A DNA stretch of 64,000 nt from Thermocrinis ruber. GTDB taxonomy: Bacteria > Aquificota > Aquificia > Aquificales > Aquificaceae. The position numbers were made by a program, and so were the translations under genes. The DNA lies in NCBI RefSeq assembly GCF_000512735.1, contig NZ_CP007028.1, positions 186,001-250,000 of the forward strand, written 5' to 3'. The notes beneath the pieces were generated by a model. The model did not search any database, was not told the origin of the DNA, and saw nothing but the letters and a program-made list of their open reading frames with translations. Below are positions 48,051-56,810 of this stretch, piece after piece (the first letter of the stretch is position 1; every line of letters begins with the position of its first letter).

Positions 48051-49544
48051 ATGAGAAAAGTTTTCATTCTTGCCTTGCTGATGCTGACCCTAAGTGCTTT
48101 CCTAACCGCATGCGGCGGCGGAGGAACTGCTTCCAGCTTGTCGGGTGGTGGAAGTGGCGGCGGGGGAGGTGGTGGCGCGGGCCAAGGAGAGGCTTTCGCC
48201 CTTCTCTACGAGGGCAATGGAACCAAGGCCCTGGCAGTGGTGAGCGATGGCACGAGCCTCTACGTGGCCGGTTTTCGTCAGGGCACCTACGATGATGGCC
48301 TACAAGATGCCATGGTTTGGAAGCTGGACGACCAGGGGGGGGTGGTGGCCCAAAGGCGTATCGGCTCTGAGCTTATGCCGGACTACGGGGGTGTGCGCGT
48401 CAACGACCGGGCCTACGCCTTGGCCCTGCACGGGGGCTACCTCTACGTGGCCGGGTACCTCGCGGGGTGCGATGACACCAACCAGGATACCTGCGGAGGC
48501 TACCCCTTCGTAGCCAAGCTGAACCCCAGCGACCTCAGCTACGTAAATGGCTTCGGCGGCAACAGCTATCCGGGTTTTAGCCAACCAGGGGTGGCGGTTC
48601 TCTACCAGACCTCGCTGTACGAACCAACTTATGCCTACGCCCTCGCCGTAGACGATTCCGGGGTTTACGTGGGCGGGTTTGGGGGGACCAAGGGCTTCGT
48701 GGCCGTTCTAGACCCAAACTACGGACAGGAGCTAAGGCGTCTCGTTTTGGGAAGCAATGACGCCCAGGCCAAAACCCACGTGGAGGCAGTGTTGGTGCGG
48801 GACGGGAGCCTCTATGTGGCGGGTCATACCAATGTGCCCTTTGACTGCCAAGGTACACCCACGGGCTCCGTAGGCCAGCAGACCATGGGTTTCATCATGA
48901 AGCTTTCGACAAGCAACCTGGACTGTGATGAGGGGTTTGGCCAAGGAGGCATTCTTTACATCCAGACCGCCGGGGACACGGAGATTCTCTCCATAGCCCT
49001 GAGTCAAGACGGCACACGTCTTCTGGCTGCGGGGTTTGGCGGGGAAGTGGTCGCTGAGGGGGACGTAAGCCTGGCGGTCATGGGCCTTGCCCGGGCCTGG
49101 GTCCTGGACTCCGCTACTGGGCAGGAGATAGATTCCTTTCCCTCCCTCCCCGATGACTACTTTTACACTCAGGGCGGGAACTGCCAGCTGGTTCATGGGA
49201 ACTTACTCTGCGCCGATAGGGTCCGCGGCCTCCGCCTGGCCTCGGACGGCAACCTCCTCCTCGTAGGGCACGTGAAAGGGCTGGTGCAGGCACAGGACCG
49301 CTTCCCCGGCACCGAGGACGGCCTCACCGGATCCAATCTCTTCTTCGCCCGTTACAGGATGGACGGGACCCGGCTTGCTTACGAGGAGGTGGACTTCGGC
49401 GGGGGAACCGAGCTGGGCTTTGGCGTGGTGCAAGGGCCGGGAGGCTACTACTACGCGGTGGGTTCCACCACGGGCCCCGTGGGAGGTGTCACCAACACGA
49501 ACCCCAAGGCCATCGTACTGCGGTTTGGCCCTACCTCTCACTAA
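48051..49544 (+). CDS. GC-rich beta-propeller-like lipoprotein, probably acquired
   Basis: A 497-residue exported lipoprotein: basic start, hydrophobic core and lipobox LTAC with Cys21, then a Gly/Ser-rich linker up to about residue 46. The rest has at least six repeats of the pattern LYVAGF or VYVGGF, each followed by a loop and FVAKL/MVWKL strand, as in SBBP or delta-60 beta-propellers. GGGAGG precedes the ATG. Sampled coding sequence is about two-thirds GC with GCC/CTG/GTG codons, quite unlike the neighbours near 45%, while the signal peptide codons look local. Transfer from a GC-rich thermophile such as Thermus is plausible. The role is unknown; surface binding or scaffolding is a guess. 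Confidence 0.75.
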   Translation: MRKVFILALLMLTLSAFLTACGGGGTASSLSGGGSGGGGGGGAGQGEAFALLYEGNGTKALAVVSDGTSLYVAGFRQGTYDDGLQDAMVWKLDDQGGVVAQRRIGSELMPDYGGVRVNDRAYALALHGGYLYVAGYLAGCDDTNQDTCGGYPFVAKLNPSDLSYVNGFGGNSYPGFSQPGVAVLYQTSLYEPTYAYALAVDDSGVYVGGFGGTKGFVAVLDPNYGQELRRLVLGSNDAQAKTHVEAVLVRDGSLYVAGHTNVPFDCQGTPTGSVGQQTMGFIMKLSTSNLDCDEGFGQGGILYIQTAGDTEILSIALSQDGTRLLAAGFGGEVVAEGDVSLAVMGLARAWVLDSATGQEIDSFPSLPDDYFYTQGGNCQLVHGNLLCADRVRGLRLASDGNLLLVGHVKGLVQAQDRFPGTEDGLTGSNLFFARYRMDGTRLAYEEVDFGGGTELGFGVVQGPGGYYYAVGSTTGPVGGVTNTNPKAIVLRFGPTSH

Positions 49545-49566
49545 ACCAGAGACACCCATATTCCTA

Positions 49567-49590
49567 CCCGCCCCCCAGCTATGGGGCGGG
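49567..49590 (+). terminator. Strong intrinsic terminator after the propeller lipoprotein gene
   Basis: CCCGCCCC, 8-nt loop, GGGGCGGG, with a CTTTTG stretch a few bases after the stem. It is 22 nt downstream of the stop codon and shares the GC-rich character of that gene, so it may have arrived with it. Confidence 0.7.
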
Positions 49591-49790
49591 GGCACTTTTG
49601 CCGAATGCCTGAATTACACTAAAGGAGGCTTACAGTAGATCTGTTCCAATTAAAAGCTCTGTTTAGTATTTCTTCTATCGCCAGTTTAGTCCGTGGATGT
49701 TAAAAGTTGATCTCTTTCAAAGTTTAGCTATGTGCTTGATTTTTCACTCAGCGTATGCGTATGGACATTATAAGGCAGTTTTTGATTAAG

Positions 49791-49796
49791 TATAAT
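49791..49796 (+). promoter_or_regulatory. -10 hexamer for the gsp operon
   Basis: TATAAT 7 nt before the GTG start of gspE. No Shine-Dalgarno site lies between them. The 200 nt between the terminator at 49590 and this site otherwise show no clear element. Confidence 0.5.
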
Positions 49797-49803
49797 TATT
49801 CCC

Positions 49804-51219
49804 GTGAAAGTGAATGTGCTGAAGGACTACAGGGTTATCCCCCTTGAGGAGGATGAAAAAAGGCTAAAGCTCTTGGCTCCTGAGGGATATGACTTTTTTC
49901 TCTTGGAGGAACTTAGGTTTTTGTTGGAAAAAGAAATAGATGTTGTTTTTGTAGATGAAAACACCTTTGCACAGGAGCTCCAAAGGAGGCTCGCCCAAGA
50001 GGAGGTGGTGGTGGAAGGAGAGGAAGGTGAAGAAGAAGCCCTAAAGGACCTCCTGCTTGAGGAAGACAAGAGCCCTGCGGTTAGCTTTGTGAACTCTATG
50101 CTCATAAAGGCAACCACCCTTTCTGCCTCGGACATCCACATAGAGCCTTATCAGGATGCATCCTACGTTAGGTTTCGCCTTGATGGAATTTTGCACGACT
50201 ACATGAGCATACCCCTCTCTTTGCACGAGTCGGTGGTCTCTCGTATAAAAATTCTTGCTAACATGAACGTGGCGGAAAAAAGGGTGCCCCAAGATGGAAA
50301 GATCAGGGTCAAGGTGGGTGGCAGGGAGATGGACATAAGGGTCTCATCGGTGCCCACCGTCTTTGGAGAGAGGGTTGTTCTTAGGCTCTTGGACCGTTCC
50401 AATCAGATGCTAACCTTGGAGGACTTGGGGCTTTCTCCGGAGGACTTGCAAAAGGTCCGAAGGCTCGCCAAAAAACCCTACGGCATAGTTTTGGCTACAG
50501 GTCCCACTGGTTCTGGAAAGAGCACCACCCTTTACGCCATGATCCTGTATATAAAAAGACCAGAGAAAAACATCATCACCATAGAGGACCCGCCCGAGTA
50601 TCAAGTGAAGGGTGTTAGCCAGATTCAGGTTAATCCTAAGGTGGGGCTCACCTTTGCCAGCGGACTCAGGGCTATCCTCAGGCAGGACCCGGATGTGATC
50701 ATGGTGGGCGAGATAAGGGATGCGGAGACTGCTGAAATTGCAGTCCATGCGGCGCTCACTGGACACCTGGTGCTCTCTACCCTTCATACCAACGACGCAG
50801 TCTCTGCGGTGGCAAGGCTTGCAGACCTTGGAATAGAGCCCTTTTTGATCGCTTCCTCCTTGGAGGGGGTCATAGCCCAAAGGCTGGTTAGGAAAATATG
50901 CCACCAGTGTAAGACCGTATACAAGCCATCCAAGGAGGAACTGGAAGAGCTTGGCTTGGAAGGAGATTACATCTTCTACAAGGGCTTGGGATGTGAGCAT
51001 TGCATGGGCACAGGCTACAAAGGAAGGACGGGTATCTTTGAGGTGCTTGAGTTGGACGAAGAGCTGAAGCAGTTTATACTAAAAACCCAAGACGCAACCG
51101 CCATAAAAAGGTTTGCCAAAGAAAAAGGTTTTAAAGACATGCTACAGGACGGTGTGGATAAGGTGCTACAGGGCATAACCACCTCGGAAGAACTAATAAG
51201 GGCTATAAAGGTAGAATGA
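49804..51219 (+). CDS. gspE: Type II secretion ATPase GspE
   Basis: GspE powers assembly of the pseudopilus that pushes folded proteins across the outer membrane. The 471-residue protein has an N-terminal domain (about 1-90), the ASDIHIEPY motif near 113, Walker A GPTGSGKST with Lys239, the Asp box and Walker B in VGEIRDAET, the His box HAALTGHLVLSTLHTND, and the four-Cys zinc site C366, C369, C397, C400 typical of GspE and PilB. The GTG start is 7 nt after a TATAAT. gspL, gspM and gspK follow directly, which favours GspE over PilB. Confidence 0.93.
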   Translation: MKVNVLKDYRVIPLEEDEKRLKLLAPEGYDFFLLEELRFLLEKEIDVVFVDENTFAQELQRRLAQEEVVVEGEEGEEEALKDLLLEEDKSPAVSFVNSMLIKATTLSASDIHIEPYQDASYVRFRLDGILHDYMSIPLSLHESVVSRIKILANMNVAEKRVPQDGKIRVKVGGREMDIRVSSVPTVFGERVVLRLLDRSNQMLTLEDLGLSPEDLQKVRRLAKKPYGIVLATGPTGSGKSTTLYAMILYIKRPEKNIITIEDPPEYQVKGVSQIQVNPKVGLTFASGLRAILRQDPDVIMVGEIRDAETAEIAVHAALTGHLVLSTLHTNDAVSAVARLADLGIEPFLIASSLEGVIAQRLVRKICHQCKTVYKPSKEELEELGLEGDYIFYKGLGCEHCMGTGYKGRTGIFEVLELDEELKQFILKTQDATAIKRFAKEKGFKDMLQDGVDKVLQGITTSEELIRAIKVE

Positions 51220-52355
51220 TATACACGGGAGTGGACGGTAAAAAATACTTTAGCGTGAATAAGTCCCTGCTGGGTAGGGGCTGGTCTCCCACTCAAAAGC
51301 TTGGCAAAAAAATATGTGTAGTACCATCAGACCGTTGCTTTGTAAAGGTTGAAAAAGCTTTATCCCAAAAGTTCTCGGACCTAAGGGATTATTACCAGTT
51401 GGAGGTTTCCGAAAAGTTTGGGCAGGTGGAGTGGGATGTTTCTTTGCATGGAGACCTTGCCATCTTGGGCGTTTATAAGAACTTTGAGGAGGAAGATTGT
51501 TGGGACATAGACCTTGAGATATTCTCCTTGGCGAGGGTTTTGCACCTGCTTGGGGTGGATGGATGCGTGCTGGACCTTGGCAGAAGAAAGAGCACACTGG
51601 TATGCGTAGAGGGTGGTATTCTCTCCCGCTACAGGGTGCTACTCAGGGGTGGAGATTATTTAAACTCTCTGATAGACCCGGAGGAACCACAGAGGGCAGA
51701 GAAGTTGAAGATAGAAAAGGGCTTGGAGTTAAAGGAGGTGGAGGATGGGCTCCGGGGCATTCTGTCTAACCTGAGGGTGGATGCTAACACTCCCATCCTT
51801 CTTAGCGGTGGTGGTGCCAAGCTGAAAGGGTTAAGAAGACTCTTTAGCAGGCTTATAGAAAATCCATACTGCCAGCCTGAATACACGAGCGCCTTTGGTG
51901 CCAGCTTAAAGTATGTGGTGAAAACTCCCTACCCAGACTTTGTGAAGAGGGAGCTTTCTCCTCAGGAGCTTAGGTGGGCGGGCTTTTCTTTGGTGGGTGG
52001 GTTGTTGCTCTTTGGCTTGGCATACTTTGGCACAGAAAGGCTCTGGTCGGTGGAGCCTTTGAGGGAAAAAGAAAAAACTGAGTTTAAAAAACTCTTTCCT
52101 AACGCACCACTGGTTGGTGTAAGGGAACAAGTCCTTTCTAAGGCAAGCAAGGAGGAGTCCTTCCAGCTTACCCAAAAGCTCTATGAACTATCTACCAAGC
52201 TTTCCCCGGACCTAAAGCTATACTCCTTAGAATTTTCAAAGGACAGTCTTTTGGTCAAGGGCGAAGGAAAAGAGGAGGTGGTCAGAGGGCTTTCGCCCAA
52301 GTCTGTTAAAAAAACACCCTCGGGCACTTTGGAGTTTGAGTTGGAACTGCGATGA
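51216..52355 (+). CDS. gspL: Type II secretion inner-membrane protein GspL-like
   Basis: GspL ties GspE to the inner-membrane platform. The first 230 or so residues look like an actin-type cytoplasmic domain, as in GspL/PilM (VLDLGRRKSTLVCVEGG near 110-125, LSGGGAKLKGLRRLF near 190), followed by one membrane helix (about 250-268) and a periplasmic domain that ends in a ferredoxin-like fold. It overlaps gspE by 4 nt and gspM by 4 nt. The sequence is divergent, so the assignment rests on layout, domain order and position. Confidence 0.75.
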   Translation: MIYTGVDGKKYFSVNKSLLGRGWSPTQKLGKKICVVPSDRCFVKVEKALSQKFSDLRDYYQLEVSEKFGQVEWDVSLHGDLAILGVYKNFEEEDCWDIDLEIFSLARVLHLLGVDGCVLDLGRRKSTLVCVEGGILSRYRVLLRGGDYLNSLIDPEEPQRAEKLKIEKGLELKEVEDGLRGILSNLRVDANTPILLSGGGAKLKGLRRLFSRLIENPYCQPEYTSAFGASLKYVVKTPYPDFVKRELSPQELRWAGFSLVGGLLLFGLAYFGTERLWSVEPLREKEKTEFKKLFPNAPLVGVREQVLSKASKEESFQLTQKLYELSTKLSPDLKLYSLEFSKDSLLVKGEGKEEVVRGLSPKSVKKTPSGTLEFELELR

Positions 52356-52750
52356 GGCTGAAAAGAAGGGATGCGATCATCTTCTTTGTTTTACTTTCTG
52401 CATTGCTTGGTTTTCTACTCTTAGACCGATATTACAAACTAAGGGATAGCTACTACAGAGATTACCTAAAGCACAAAGAGATTATGTTTTTGCTGGCAAA
52501 CTACCAAGGGAAGAAAAGGGAAGCACCCACTGAGCAGTTGATAAGAATGCTCTTTTCTCAGTATCAGGGAGAGTTCAAATCCTTTAGGCAAACGGATGCG
52601 GGCTACGAGGTGCAGGGTACAAACCTGCCCGGAGAAAAGCTTCCCTACCTGATCTATGCCTTGGAGGAGAGGGGTATAAGCGTGCAAAAGCTAAGGGCGG
52701 TGGATAACACCGGACAGGGGCTATTTGAAATATACTTGCTTTTGAAATGA
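52352..52750 (+). CDS. gspM: Type II secretion protein GspM-like
   Basis: A 132-residue protein with a short cytoplasmic start (MRLKRRDA), one membrane helix (about 9-24), a periplasmic coiled part and a small ferredoxin-like C-terminal domain (about 75-132). This is the GspM layout. GspM binds GspL and together they hold the ATPase. There is little conserved sequence; position between gspL and gspK, with 4-nt overlaps on both sides, makes the call. Confidence 0.7.
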   Translation: MRLKRRDAIIFFVLLSALLGFLLLDRYYKLRDSYYRDYLKHKEIMFLLANYQGKKREAPTEQLIRMLFSQYQGEFKSFRQTDAGYEVQGTNLPGEKLPYLIYALEERGISVQKLRAVDNTGQGLFEIYLLLK

Positions 52751-53601
52751 TCCCACTGCTTGCCCTGATGCTGTTTTTGATGTCCGCTTACTATGTGCTG
52801 GATGCATACTCTGCCACCAAGTCTGCCCAAAAGGTGGTGGAGGAGGTATCCTTTAAGGTGCAGGCAAGCTATGTCTTTTCTTACGCCCTGCCTTTAGTCC
52901 TTGACCTTTTAAAAAGGGATGACCCTTCCGTGGATAGCCTTCAAGATAGCTGGGCACGGGAGCTGACCTTTAGAACAGATAGGGGCGAGCTGAGGATTAC
53001 CATATACGACGAAGATAGGTTCTTAAACCTAAACTCAGTGGATGAGGGTCCATACGGGAAGTTCTTTGAAAGGCTTTTAAGGCTCCTTGCCATTGACCCT
53101 TCCTATAAAGAAAACCTTTTGGTTTGGACTGGCAAATCAAAGGGCACTATAAACACCGACTATCCCATCAAGAGGGCACCCTTGGATGCAAAGGAGGAGC
53201 TCTATTACATGGGCTTTGATAGACAAGACCTACTGGGAAAGGAGCTGGGCGGAAAGTTTTACCCGGGGCTTTTAGAGCTTACCACAGTGGATTCCAAAGG
53301 AAAGGTCAACATAAACACCGCAAGCCTTTATGTGCTGATGGCCCTTGACCAGAGAATAGACGAAACCTTGGCGAGCAAGATAATAGAAAGAAGAAACAGA
53401 GAACCCTTCAAAAAGCCCGAAGATTTGCTGATGGTGGATGGCATGACCCTTGATATCCTTTACAATATCAGGGATTTAATAGACGTGAAAAGTTCCACCT
53501 TTCACATAAAGATGGAGCTAAGGAGCGGAGAAAGGTCGGCAGTCTTTGAGGTGGTTTATGACAGGCAAGCGGATAAAATCCTTTATAAAAAGCTACTATG
53601 A
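52747..53601 (+). CDS. gspK: Type II secretion minor pseudopilin GspK-like
   Basis: GspK caps the pseudopilus tip with GspI and GspJ. The 284-residue protein starts with a pilin-like hydrophobic N-terminal helix and a glycine-less short leader (MIPLLALMLFLMSAYYVLDAYS), then an alpha/beta pilin part and the all-helical insert typical of GspK, with LNLNSVDEGP near 100 and the VNINTASLYVLMAL helix-hairpin-helix-like block near 195 (the family's NVNTAP motif). It overlaps gspM by 4 nt, and its end overlaps the CPBP protease gene by 56 nt. Confidence 0.82.
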   Translation: MIPLLALMLFLMSAYYVLDAYSATKSAQKVVEEVSFKVQASYVFSYALPLVLDLLKRDDPSVDSLQDSWARELTFRTDRGELRITIYDEDRFLNLNSVDEGPYGKFFERLLRLLAIDPSYKENLLVWTGKSKGTINTDYPIKRAPLDAKEELYYMGFDRQDLLGKELGGKFYPGLLELTTVDSKGKVNINTASLYVLMALDQRIDETLASKIIERRNREPFKKPEDLLMVDGMTLDILYNIRDLIDVKSSTFHIKMELRSGERSAVFEVVYDRQADKILYKKLL

Positions 53602-54055
53602 GCTCATCCTTTACCTGTTTGTGCTACTCTCCGTATTTTTGCATAAGTTTTTTGGCATTCCAAACCTTTCCATTTTCTTTTTGCTTTTTCCCCTTGTCTT
53701 TCTTGAGATAAGACTTTTGGACCGGTGGGTTCTTCTTTGGCTCCTTTATCCCACAACCTTTTTGTTTTTTGATGCCCTTTGGCTTTTGGGCATGACCATC
53801 TCTGCCTTTGCGGAGGAGCTCTTCTTTAGGGTATACCTTATGAAAAGGTTCAGCAACCTGAGTGTTTCTCTTATGTTTGTGATCCCTCACTTTATCTTAT
53901 ACCCCGGTATTCTTTCCCTGCTCACCTTTTTTCCTTCCCTCTTCTTTGGCTTTGCCTATCAAAAAACAAGGTCCTTAGCTTTTGTTAGTCTTTTACACCT
54001 TGTTTCCAATCTGGTTTATTTCAAGAGCATTTCAAATTGGTCTTTGTTTAACTGA
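53546..54055 (+). CDS. CPBP-family intramembrane protease, myxosortase-like candidate
   Basis: A 169-residue membrane protein with about five or six helices. All three CPBP (CAAX protease and bacteriocin-processing) motifs are intact: EE-x3-R at Glu90, Glu91, Arg95; F-x3-H at Phe111, His115; and H-x3-N at His151, Asn155. These make up the glutamic intramembrane protease site. It overlaps gspK by 56 nt (44 if the second ATG at 53558 is used), so it is tied to the secretion operon. Small CPBP enzymes of this kind include myxosortase and relatives that process C-terminal sorting signals. The subtilisin at 54888-56810 carries such a tail. The function is inferred from context. Confidence 0.72.
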   Translation: MRWFMTGKRIKSFIKSYYELILYLFVLLSVFLHKFFGIPNLSIFFLLFPLVFLEIRLLDRWVLLWLLYPTTFLFFDALWLLGMTISAFAEELFFRVYLMKRFSNLSVSLMFVIPHFILYPGILSLLTFFPSLFFGFAYQKTRSLAFVSLLHLVSNLVYFKSISNWSLFN

Positions 54056-54064
54056 ATGCCTATA

Positions 54065-54865
54065 TTAAGGCACGCAGGTGCCACTGAGAGGCACGATCTG
54101 AAAGCTCACGGGTACAGATACTGTTTTCACCTTTCCACTGTATTGCTCCATTACAGTCCAGTTATACACTGCGTTTACATTGCAAACACCAGAAAAACCA
54201 GGTGGTGGTATGAAGCTCGTCGTTGTGGTGGTTATACACACATTGGATATACCAATAGCTAATGCAAAGGGTCGGGTGTTGTACGTGAGGGAAACAGATG
54301 CTGTGCTCTCTCCATCGGATGGTGCTGGGACAACGGTGTAAACGGTTTTTGCATCTGATGTAGGAAGAAAAGGCGGACAACCGAAAGAATAGCTAAAAAT
54401 AGCGGTGTAGCCTTGGATTATGACTGGAGATGTCGGTCTTGGTAGAGGTTTCCCGCTGGCGTCAAAGAGTGGTATTGATCTAAAGTTGAAGGTTATAGTC
54501 CATTCCGTGGGTGTTCCAATGCAGGTATTTACTTGTGCACAGCAAACATCTCTAAAATTCCCACCGTCGCAAGGTGTTCCCGCGGGCACATCCGCACAAG
54601 TTTGGCAACCGGGTTCATCACACCTTCCGTTGTTGTTTGTATCTCCAACACAGGCTTTTAATGGATTGAAATCGTAAATCTGCTGTGTCTGTGCATTCAC
54701 GATCGGAACTATGCCCGGGCTAACATCTACACCAGCGGAAGAAAATACAACCGTGCTAAACTCTGCCAGGCTACCTCCCGCATCCGAAAGACCACTGCCT
54801 CCGCACCCAAAAAGCCCAAAGCCTGCCATTCCAAAAAGACTTGAATAGATAACCCATTTTTTCAT
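54065..54865 (-). CDS. Cys-rich lipoprotein with calcium-loop-like segment
   Basis: A 266-residue exported lipoprotein with lipobox LFGC (Cys21), then a Gly/Ser-rich linker. The mature part has at least twelve cysteines, for instance GRCDEPGCQTCADVP and FRDVCCAQVNTC, so several disulfides are likely, and GDTNNNGRCD resembles a dockerin or thrombospondin calcium loop. The second half is beta-strand-rich and reads like an Ig-fold. I recognise no family. It converges on the CPBP protease gene with a 9-nt gap and lies just downstream of the subtilisin gene on the same strand (22 nt), so the two minus-strand genes are probably co-transcribed. Confidence 0.7.
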   Translation of the reverse strand: MKKWVIYSSLFGMAGFGLFGCGGSGLSDAGGSLAEFSTVVFSSAGVDVSPGIVPIVNAQTQQIYDFNPLKACVGDTNNNGRCDEPGCQTCADVPAGTPCDGGNFRDVCCAQVNTCIGTPTEWTITFNFRSIPLFDASGKPLPRPTSPVIIQGYTAIFSYSFGCPPFLPTSDAKTVYTVVPAPSDGESTASVSLTYNTRPFALAIGISNVCITTTTTSFIPPPGFSGVCNVNAVYNWTVMEQYSGKVKTVSVPVSFQIVPLSGTCVP

Positions 54866-54887
54866 CGCCCTTTCCCCCTTTTCTAAA

Positions 54888-56810
54888 TTATAGCACTTTT
54901 CTTATTCTCTTCCTGAGAATTACAGTCAAGACAAGGGCTAACAGGGCAGTGTATAGGTCTGGGCTAGCACTGTTGCATCCACCACCTCCACCGCCTCCGC
55001 CACCACCAACACTCTCTCTCAACCCGCAAGTAAAGTTTTCAAGGGAGCCTACGTAAATACTTCCAACACTACCAACACTGCTAAAAGAACTCAAGAAAGC
55101 CTTTCCATATCCGTATGTGTTGTTGGGCAAGAAGCCCGTAAAACCGTCCGAGAGGGCTTGGGAGATCAAAATGCTTCTAACTCCATTTACATCCAAGTTA
55201 GGGTTTTCTTCCAAAATCAAAGCCACCAAACCAGCTACTACTGGTGAAGCCATGGAAGTCCCGGGCAGTGGTATGTAGCCACTGGTTCCAGCCTCTGGAC
55301 CAAGGACAAAGTATCCGGGTGCCACCACTTCTGGCTTTAGCCTCCCGTCCCTTGTGGGTCCCCGGGAGGAAAAGTAAGCAATTTTACCCAAATCAATAAA
55401 ACTTCTCGGATCGTAAGAGACAAACCTTGAAGTCAAAGCCCCAACCGCTATAACGTAGGGAGATGTTGCGGGCTGCACCACCGTTCCCAAAAAGCCACCA
55501 AACCCGTCATCTAAAAAGCAATCTATAAACTCGCCGTTTTCATTGGCTAAGTATAGGTCTGCGTTGGGTGTTCCACTACGTGGCGTAAGCCTTATGGTAA
55601 AGTTACCACTGCAGTTAAACCCTACCACAAACCTACCGTCTCCGTTCAGTGGGTGGCTTGTTTTTGTGTTGTCAATATTCACACGGCACCCTCCAGAAAG
55701 ATTGCCACTGACAGATGTTCCCGGCTCTGTAGAGAGGCACCTGTTGTAACTGTCGCAAAACTCAACCCTAAGGGTGCCGTTTTTATACCAGCCATCTATG
55801 ACATCACCCTCGGGATAGGGAGAGTTGAGCCTAACGGAGACGGTGGAGCTTATGCCACTTACTTTTGCATAGAGTTTTTTGTGGCCCTCATTGCCCGCCG
55901 ACGCAACAACCACAAAACCGCTTCCCGAAAGGTTGGCTATTGCCCTTTCCAACATGCTTGTTCCATCGTGAGGTCCAAAGTGTCCGCCAAGGGACATATT
56001 CACCACCATAGGTCTGCCAAGGGAGTTTTTCTTGTTCCTCAAATATTGCAAGCCTCGGATTACATCTGTGTCCTCTAGGTTTGTGCGCACCACAATAAGG
56101 TCTGCATCTGGAGCAATATAGCTGGCTATGCCCGCCACATGGGTGCCATGTATATCGTAATCTCCATCGCACCTTCCGTCTCTTATAAACTGTTCTATCT
56201 GTGTTCTTGTATACTCTGTGTTAGTTGCTGGCACATAGTAATAAAGAATCTTGGAAGAGCCATCACGCCTTCTAAAGGCAGGATGGCACCAGTCTATGCC
56301 AGAGTCTATGATTCCTATTATCACATTCCTTCCAGTCTTTCCCGTGTTTGCCGCACCCGTGCCTATGTAGTAGGCGGTGGTAGAAAGGTCCGAAAGCTGA
56401 AGGTTTCTACCAAAAGATTGGACTATAAGTCTCCAATCGGAGGAGGAATAAACGCTAAGGTTTAGGGTCCCACTGTTGCAAATTAGATTATCTATGCTTC
56501 CAGAACAGCTACCGGAGAAGGAAACGGATGCACCACCCGCCAAGATGGATAGCCTCTGCCCACTTTGGGTGTTTATGCTAAAGCTGTAGTTCCCACTGCC
56601 CCTTATGGCTACGGAGGAGGAGTAGGCTATGGTGTCAAGGAGTTTGAGCTTTATGGGTGGCTCCACATATATAACATCCGGACGTGTCCGAAGGACGCTT
56701 AGAGGTGTTTTCCTTGTATCCACCACCTCTACTTTGCCGTTTGAATAAAGCACTTTAACATGCTGGGAAAAGGAGAGGGTAAAAAGCAGTAAAAGGATCA
56801 ACAGTCTCAT
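54888..56810 (-). CDS. Subtilisin-like S8 protease with C-terminal sorting signal
   Basis: A secreted serine protease of 640 residues. A signal peptide (about 1-16) is followed by a propeptide-like and beta-rich region, then the S8 domain with Asp169 (IIDSGID), His221 (HGTHVAG), the oxyanion Asn in ASAGNEG and Ser519 (GTSMASP). A jelly-roll-like insert sits between the Asn and Ser parts. The tail is notable: a Gly run (602-611), Cys612, a hydrophobic helix (about 619-632) and RKRIRK at the end. This matches MYXO-CTERM-type sorting signals, in which a CPBP protease removes the helix and Cys is lipidated. A CPBP gene lies just past its 3' neighbour. Confidence 0.88.
   Translation of the reverse strand: MRLLILLLLFTLSFSQHVKVLYSNGKVEVVDTRKTPLSVLRTRPDVIYVEPPIKLKLLDTIAYSSSVAIRGSGNYSFSINTQSGQRLSILAGGASVSFSGSCSGSIDNLICNSGTLNLSVYSSSDWRLIVQSFGRNLQLSDLSTTAYYIGTGAANTGKTGRNVIIGIIDSGIDWCHPAFRRRDGSSKILYYYVPATNTEYTRTQIEQFIRDGRCDGDYDIHGTHVAGIASYIAPDADLIVVRTNLEDTDVIRGLQYLRNKKNSLGRPMVVNMSLGGHFGPHDGTSMLERAIANLSGSGFVVVASAGNEGHKKLYAKVSGISSTVSVRLNSPYPEGDVIDGWYKNGTLRVEFCDSYNRCLSTEPGTSVSGNLSGGCRVNIDNTKTSHPLNGDGRFVVGFNCSGNFTIRLTPRSGTPNADLYLANENGEFIDCFLDDGFGGFLGTVVQPATSPYVIAVGALTSRFVSYDPRSFIDLGKIAYFSSRGPTRDGRLKPEVVAPGYFVLGPEAGTSGYIPLPGTSMASPVVAGLVALILEENPNLDVNGVRSILISQALSDGFTGFLPNNTYGYGKAFLSSFSSVGSVGSIYVGSLENFTCGLRESVGGGGGGGGGGCNSASPDLYTALLALVLTVILRKRIRKVL

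Follow-up and report, generated by a model that had tools for sequence, protein, structure and literature searches.

The window, a stretch of 64,000 nucleotides from the Thermocrinis ruber genome (contig NZ_CP007028.1, positions 186,001 to 250,000), carries a gspE-L-M-K operon of the type II secretion system (T2SS) that ends in a gene for a CPBP intramembrane protease, and close to it a gene for a secreted subtilisin with a cysteine-containing C-terminal tail. The comparison of 136 Aquificota genomes, 88 of them of high quality, points to a C-terminal sorting system of this phylum in which the CPBP protease would trim the tail, the T2SS would export the tailed protein (the client) and the client would be held at the surface; we put the probability of this reading at about 0.8. 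The tail architecture, the co-occurrence of tail and protease and their recurrent linkage were observed directly in the genomes. The tie between CPBP, tail and T2SS that a preliminary description had proposed from the window holds across the phylum: CPBP and tail co-occur, their genes often lie side by side, and several genera show a linkage with T2SS genes. The features of the locus are as follows (coordinates in the window, strand, feature and evidence):

49804–51219, plus strand: gspE, type II secretion ATPase (TIGR02533 619.8 bits, cut-off 630.25; PF00437 459 bits)
51216–52355, plus strand: gspL-like gene, FtsA-like fold (PF14450 23 bits, under its cut-off; its place, and that of its orthologues, within the conserved gspE-L-M-K operon)
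52352–52750, plus strand: gspM-like gene (no significant family match; the assignment follows from its size, its position and the conservation of its orthologues)
52747–53601, plus strand: gspK, minor pseudopilin (NF037980 84 bits, cut-off 130; PF03934 36.5 bits, over cut-off)
53546–54055, plus strand: CPBP (Rce1-like) glutamic intramembrane protease, proposed sorting enzyme (PF02517, intact motifs)
54065–54865, minus strand: ORF266, Cys-rich lipoprotein of 266 amino acids, lipobox ..GLFGC-GG, proposed as a partner of the tailed proteins (neighbourhood of tailed genes)
54888–56810, minus strand: secreted subtilisin (S8) of 640 amino acids that has a signal peptide and, at its C-terminus, a sorting tail, proposed as a client (PF00082 146 bits; triad motifs intact)
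54978–55007, minus strand: ten-glycine linker of the tail, residues 602–611 (sequence)
54975–54977, minus strand: signature cysteine C612 (invariant in 21 aligned tails)
54915–54956, minus strand: hydrophobic helix of the tail, residues 619–632 (sequence)
54897–54914, minus strand: basic cytoplasmic end RKRIRK, residues 633–638 (sequence)

The genes gspE, gspL, gspM and gspK are joined by head-to-tail overlaps of 4 nucleotides each. The CPBP open reading frame (ORF), read from a TTG start, encodes 169 amino acids and overlaps gspK by 56 nucleotides. An alternative start, the ATG at 53558, gives 165 amino acids and a 44-nucleotide overlap, with the ribosome-binding-like sequence GAGGTGG just upstream; it is at least as good as TTG and probably the true start. 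The PF02517 score of 42.6 bits (gathering threshold 22.4) places the protein in the CPBP (Rce1-like) family. The motifs E90-E91-x3-R95, F111-x3-H115 and H151-x3-N155 are accompanied by FFPSL at 128–132, and the catalytic residues do not vary among 15 aligned Aquificota homologues. The predicted structure of the enzyme reached a pLDDT of 87.9. All features ascribed to this gene earlier, i.e., the three intact motifs and the 56-nucleotide overlap at the end of gspE-L-M-K, are present.

The subtilisin keeps its triad motifs (DSGID at 169, HGTH at 221 and GTSMASP at 517) and ends in ten glycines (602–611), C612, NSASPD, LYTALLALVLTVIL and RKRIRKVL. Only one of the 11 cysteines of the whole protein lies in the tail. 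Ten glycines, the single tail cysteine, helix and RKRIRK are thus as first described; the direct adjacency to the CPBP gene is not, since the gene of ORF266, 22 nucleotides downstream of the subtilisin gene and on the same strand, separates the two. The layout of ten glycines, cysteine, helix and basic end occurs at one of the 122 long ORF ends in the window and in none of 200 codon shuffles of the window, and therefore the architecture is not due to chance. In orthologues of the subtilisin the tail is conserved and the glycine-rich linker is variable.

The search for such tails in the 136 genomes used a profile built first from four tails and then from 21; the counts are based on the 21-tail profile at E 0.01. 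About 45 distinct tails were read individually and the remaining matches were taken as scored. Weak matches of the four-tail profile in G033, G037, G047 and G051 proved spurious on reading; G051 stays tail-positive in the statistics, as it passed E 0.01 with the 21-tail profile, although no convincing tailed protein is present there. Long ORFs with ends of the form GGGGGGC[SN][MLT]-x5-8-hydrophobic-RR were found in 76 of the 136 genomes, and the cysteine is invariant in the 21 aligned tails. Other Aquificota genomes have up to eight tail matches on proteins of many domain types: subtilase, VesB-like Ig, SBBP propeller, beta-helix, InlB-type repeats, PKD, DUF7948 and, in one genome, cytochrome c7. 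Several of the proteins also score over the cut-offs for the NCBIfam choice-of-anchor D and Q domains, and by their domains the tailed proteins appear to be of typical secreted, surface-held kinds. The cytochrome (G133, L278:4575-6692) is a tailed 705-residue protein with c7-type haem repeats, a candidate surface-anchored multihaem cytochrome. One tailed protein of G046 (L190:3213-5888) combines a lipobox-like N-terminus (LLAILSGCGGG) with a C-terminal GGGC tail.

The tail of the window subtilisin matched none of the CTERM models (MYXO-, JDVT- and Synerg-CTERM). Among the other Aquificota tails, one from genus g4 (L143, G029) passes the MYXO-CTERM model TIGR03901 (21.5 bits, cut-off 20), while the JDVT- and Synerg-CTERM cut-offs were not reached (13.6 of 27, 11.6 of 22.5 and 17.6 of 22.5 bits). 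The tails also resemble GlyGly-CTERM, the signal of rhombosortase substrates such as VesB of Vibrio cholerae: in both systems serine proteases carry a glycine-rich motif, a helix and a basic tail, with T2SS export and surface retention (proposed here for Aquificota), and VesB-like Ig domains occur on Aquificota clients too. The tails might accordingly be read as GlyGly-CTERM signals cut by the one rhomboid protease of the genome, and one Aquificota tail does have a sub-threshold GlyGly-CTERM match. Rhombosortase, however, is a rhomboid serine protease whose GlyGly-CTERM signal has no invariant cysteine, whereas the cysteine of the Aquificota tails is invariant and their family matches are mostly to MYXO-, JDVT- and Synerg-CTERM. 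Moreover, the sole rhomboid scores 17.5 bits with TIGR03902 (cut-off 84), which rules it out as a rhombosortase and leaves the genome of the window without one; we regard this explanation as extremely unlikely.

The distribution of the tail follows that of the CPBP gene. Scored by the two profiles, all 136 genomes divide into 70 with both, 6 with the tail only, 24 with CPBP only and 36 with neither. The corresponding numbers for the 88 high-quality genomes are 54, 2, 13 and 19 (Fisher p 5.5e-9), CPBP being present in 54 of 56 tail-positive genomes, and for genera 21, 0, 4 and 5 (p 8.8e-4). The preliminary description had named a lack of co-occurrence as one result that would refute its proposal; the scan did not refute it, as CPBP was found in all 21 tail-positive genera. 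Among gspK-positive genomes, tails are present in 66 of 81 with CPBP and in 4 of 15 without it (p 6e-5); as tails track CPBP even here, gspK alone is insufficient to explain their distribution. The losses of CPBP, gspK and tail coincide in detail. G052, from the genus of the window, retains only a CPBP fragment and has neither gspK nor a tail. G036 and G037, likewise without gspK and tail, have a CPBP of about 124 amino acids that lacks the N-terminal part. In both (L193:8019-8393 and L024, respectively) the truncated gene sits where the gspELMK genes are missing and appears to be a remnant left when the operon was deleted. Neither CPBP nor tail was found in the five genomes of g5 and the single genome of g9.

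Gene order connects the same elements. The CPBP gene overlaps or abuts gspK in g1, g4, g6 and g7 and terminates a gspK-L-M-N operon in g21, so that in five genera it is the last gene of a gsp operon, and tailed genes adjoin it in g1, g11, g18 and g21. A tailed subtilase adjoins the gspE-L-M-K operon in g7 (G040, G043, G044 and G047), is part of the gsp operon itself in g17, with gspN on one side and gspC on the other, and stands beside gspM-L-E-D in g20. Tailed genes are therefore neighbours of CPBP or T2SS genes in seven genera (g1, g7, g11, g17, g18, g20 and g21), for which we estimate a rough chance probability of ~1e-4 or less, assuming 3–8 tailed genes per genome and independent genera. 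As most of the linked clients are subtilases, the association of subtilisin and CPBP first noted in the window is real and old.

The position beside gspK in four genera also suggests a different role, in which the CPBP enzyme, although linked to the T2SS, would process one of its components (for example GspK or a pseudopilin) and not the client tails. The joint loss of gspK, CPBP and tails in G052, and in G036 and G037 apart from the truncated CPBP, agrees with it. In most genera, however, the CPBP gene lies away from gspK, in g11 and g18 it lies beside tailed genes, and 15 gspK-positive genomes have no CPBP. Pseudopilins are, besides, matured by a separate prepilin peptidase. We consider this role very unlikely.

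The genome of the window, a single contig of 1,521,037 bases, has only one CPBP gene. A second tailed protein is encoded at C1:10958-12136 on the minus strand; it has 392 amino acids, a signal peptide and a DUF7948 domain and ends in GGGGGGGGGCSMTGSASSVAGLWNILVWLSVPFFALARRIRRK. A DNA pattern for GGGC gave 110 matches. Nearly all the matches on a list of 100, and those in the last 11 kb, were checked; among the matches listed two are real tails and the others are out of frame or internal. The pattern could miss tails without three glycines directly before the cysteine, and the tail-profile searches of the genome recovered only the same two. The single enzyme therefore has several candidate clients, at least two in this genome. 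The idea of a dedicated pair of enzyme and substrate has to be given up, in view of the second tailed protein, the up to eight tail matches elsewhere and the close relative G056, where the tailed subtilisin and CPBP lie on different contigs; an exclusive pair is ruled out by the further clients.

The secretin gene gspD was found at G000:C1:1223997 and shares 93% identity with the gspD that a sister genome has near gspE. GspE, GspK and GspD are thus all present in the genome of the window, with the strict NCBIfam cut-offs missed (GspE 619.8 of 630 bits, GspK 84 of 130). A Gly-rich SBBP-type lipoprotein gene (region 48051–49804; lipobox LTAC-GGGG) lies upstream of gspE. In the sister genomes (L125 and L126) a PDZ gspC-like gene is divergent from gspE, and L125 has gspD there too. 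The T2SS cluster of the window's genome was therefore split, as gspD is about 1 Mb away and the lipoprotein gene stands upstream of gspE.

The enzyme was compared with the myxosortases, to which it had been likened. Experiments in Myxococcus xanthus (Guo, Haft and Wall 2025, PMC11980579) showed that MrtX cleaves MYXO-CTERM and requires the cysteine for this, that it is active in E. coli too, and that its substrates rely on the T2SS. The two systems have in common a CPBP glutamic intramembrane protease, a tail made up of a Cys motif, a helix and a basic end, delivery to the surface by the T2SS (proposed here for Aquificota) and one enzyme with many clients. Unlike MrtX, the Aquificota enzyme is 70 amino acids shorter (169 versus 239) and in several genera is encoded in the gsp operon, and its tails have a poly-Gly run and a single cysteine. 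The comparison with the hidden Markov models did not bear out formal membership in the myxosortase family: every NCBIfam Mrt cut-off (Mrt_core, MrtX, MrtC, MrtP, MrtJ and MrtS) was missed, with 36.2 of 75 bits for MrtJ and 31.8 of 130 for MrtS. Mrt_core (NF040914) is the top model for the window CPBP, while ABC_perm_CPBP tops three of the generic CPBPs. A generic CPBP scores as high on Mrt_core, and therefore the best Mrt match is ruled out as proof of membership.

The sequence FFPSL between the catalytic histidines occurs in 13 of the 15 Aquificota sequences of the tree (two members of f2 do not match) and in two sequences that score over the Mrt_core and MrtJ cut-offs, L245 and L260, and is absent from the four generic CPBPs; this criterion is our own, and the outgroups were collected by a scan with a related pattern and form a biased sample. 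The tree groups the window CPBP with the Mrt-like sequences and splits it from the four generic CPBPs (support 89/88), with only 89 columns and long branches, and places it apart from the clade that holds the MrtJ-passing sequence. On the basis of the missed cut-offs on the one hand and the shared FFPSL and the tentative tree grouping on the other, the enzyme would work like a myxosortase yet probably belongs to a separate lineage.

The MrtJ/JDVT-CTERM system (Haft 2024, cited after PMC11980579) is similar in that the gene of a CPBP enzyme adjoins that of its Cys-tailed client. Unlike the Aquificota system, it is found in proteobacteria and consists of just two genes, with a single client; the window CPBP also misses its cut-off (36 versus 75 bits). 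A CPBP gene directly follows a Gly-Cys-tailed gene on a Nitrospira contig (L260, where the CPBP passes the MrtJ cut-off) and on a Campylobacteraceae contig (L262), and these appear to be MrtJ-type pairs outside the beta- and gammaproteobacteria. The f2 enzymes have MrtS as their best NCBIfam match (66 and 74 bits), and some Aquificota tails match Synerg-CTERM weakly; all these scores lie under the cut-offs (130 and 22.5 bits), and a search of the window's genome for Synerg-CTERM gave no match. Filing the system of the window as myxosortase, JDVT-, Synerg- or MYXO-CTERM is ruled out by the missed cut-offs.

Several results weigh against a CPBP-dependent sorting system. Two high-quality genomes, G046 and G073, have a tail with no CPBP found (in G046 no gspK was found either), and 13 high-quality genomes have CPBP with no tail over the threshold; the expectation that the tail occurs only where CPBP occurs thus holds for genera, with these two as exceptions among the high-quality genomes. 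As the genomes are related, the genome-level p-values overstate the evidence and the genus-level value is the one to be trusted. Mrt_core gives the window CPBP 41.5 bits (cut-off 100) and a generic Bacteroidota CPBP 43.4. A Foldseek search with the CPBP model returned no PDB match, and no lipidating enzyme was identified. The two sets of exceptions would also be expected if the tails acted as stop-transfer anchors and remained in the inner membrane, as a tail could by itself serve as a tail-anchor, and if CPBP, with a housekeeping or bacteriocin-type role, were a mere passenger of the gsp operon. Against this, no genus without CPBP has tails, tails are rare where gspK remains but CPBP is gone, CPBP adjoins tailed genes in g11 and g18, where it is not beside gspK, and a plain anchor would not need the invariant Gly-Cys motif. 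We therefore consider a passenger role unlikely and prefer the sorting system.

In that system, cleavage, lipidation, T2SS export and surface anchoring are inferred by analogy with Myxococcus and Vibrio. Sec would export the subtilisin, and the C-terminal helix and basic end would retain it in the inner membrane. The CPBP enzyme, encoded with inner-membrane components of the T2SS, would then cut near the Gly-Cys motif and remove the helix, probably after lipidation of the cysteine, which in Myxococcus is still a hypothesis (PMC11980579). The folded subtilisin would be carried by the T2SS to the outer surface and held there via the lipidated cysteine. A single CPBP may serve all tailed proteins of the cell, with the subtilisin as the client most often tied to T2SS genes.

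The ORF266 family, which had no name before, was found in 18 genomes (homologues on L181 and L294–L305), and in 15 of these a tailed gene lies directly next to it; the adjacency in G062 was read across two contig ends and that in G028 from coordinates only. The tailed neighbour is the subtilisin in g1 and an Ig or InlB-repeat protein in g4, g7 and g11. The three exceptions are G051 (a genome in which no tailed protein is convincing), G039 (a fragment) and G133 (a marginal match). In g4 and part of g7 the pair stands beside a second gspE, and in g4 beside a second secretin gene too. The paralogue (L294, L295 and L303 in g4; L296 and L301 in g7) is about 53% identical to GspE. None of 13 homologues of ORF266 has a Pfam match, and its model is a beta-sandwich of low confidence (pLDDT 66) with structure matches that are not specific. 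From this linkage, ORF266 is proposed as a partner of the tailed proteins. A further idea, tentative and rather doubtful, is that the Aquificota have their own, probably ancestral, sorting-protease lineage inside the T2SS operon with ORF266 as partner, and that clients reach the surface in pairs, one lipidated N-terminally and the other C-terminally.

No description of a sorting system of this kind in Aquificota was found in titles or abstracts of the open-licence literature, where a prior mention is possible. CPBP-type sorting is known from a few other groups of bacteria; as far as we found, there is no description of it for this phylum of hot-spring bacteria. The results extend CPBP-based, cysteine-dependent sorting to a deep-branching thermophilic phylum and add genomic support for the tie between sorting and the T2SS, which until now rested mainly on Myxococcus experiments and models. 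The small, presumably heat-stable enzyme-client pairs could help to ask whether lipidation of the cysteine precedes cleavage, a question that is open for myxosortase. The results also predict a part of the surface proteome, of which little is known in these organisms; for one lineage the prediction includes the multihaem cytochrome as a candidate surface protein.

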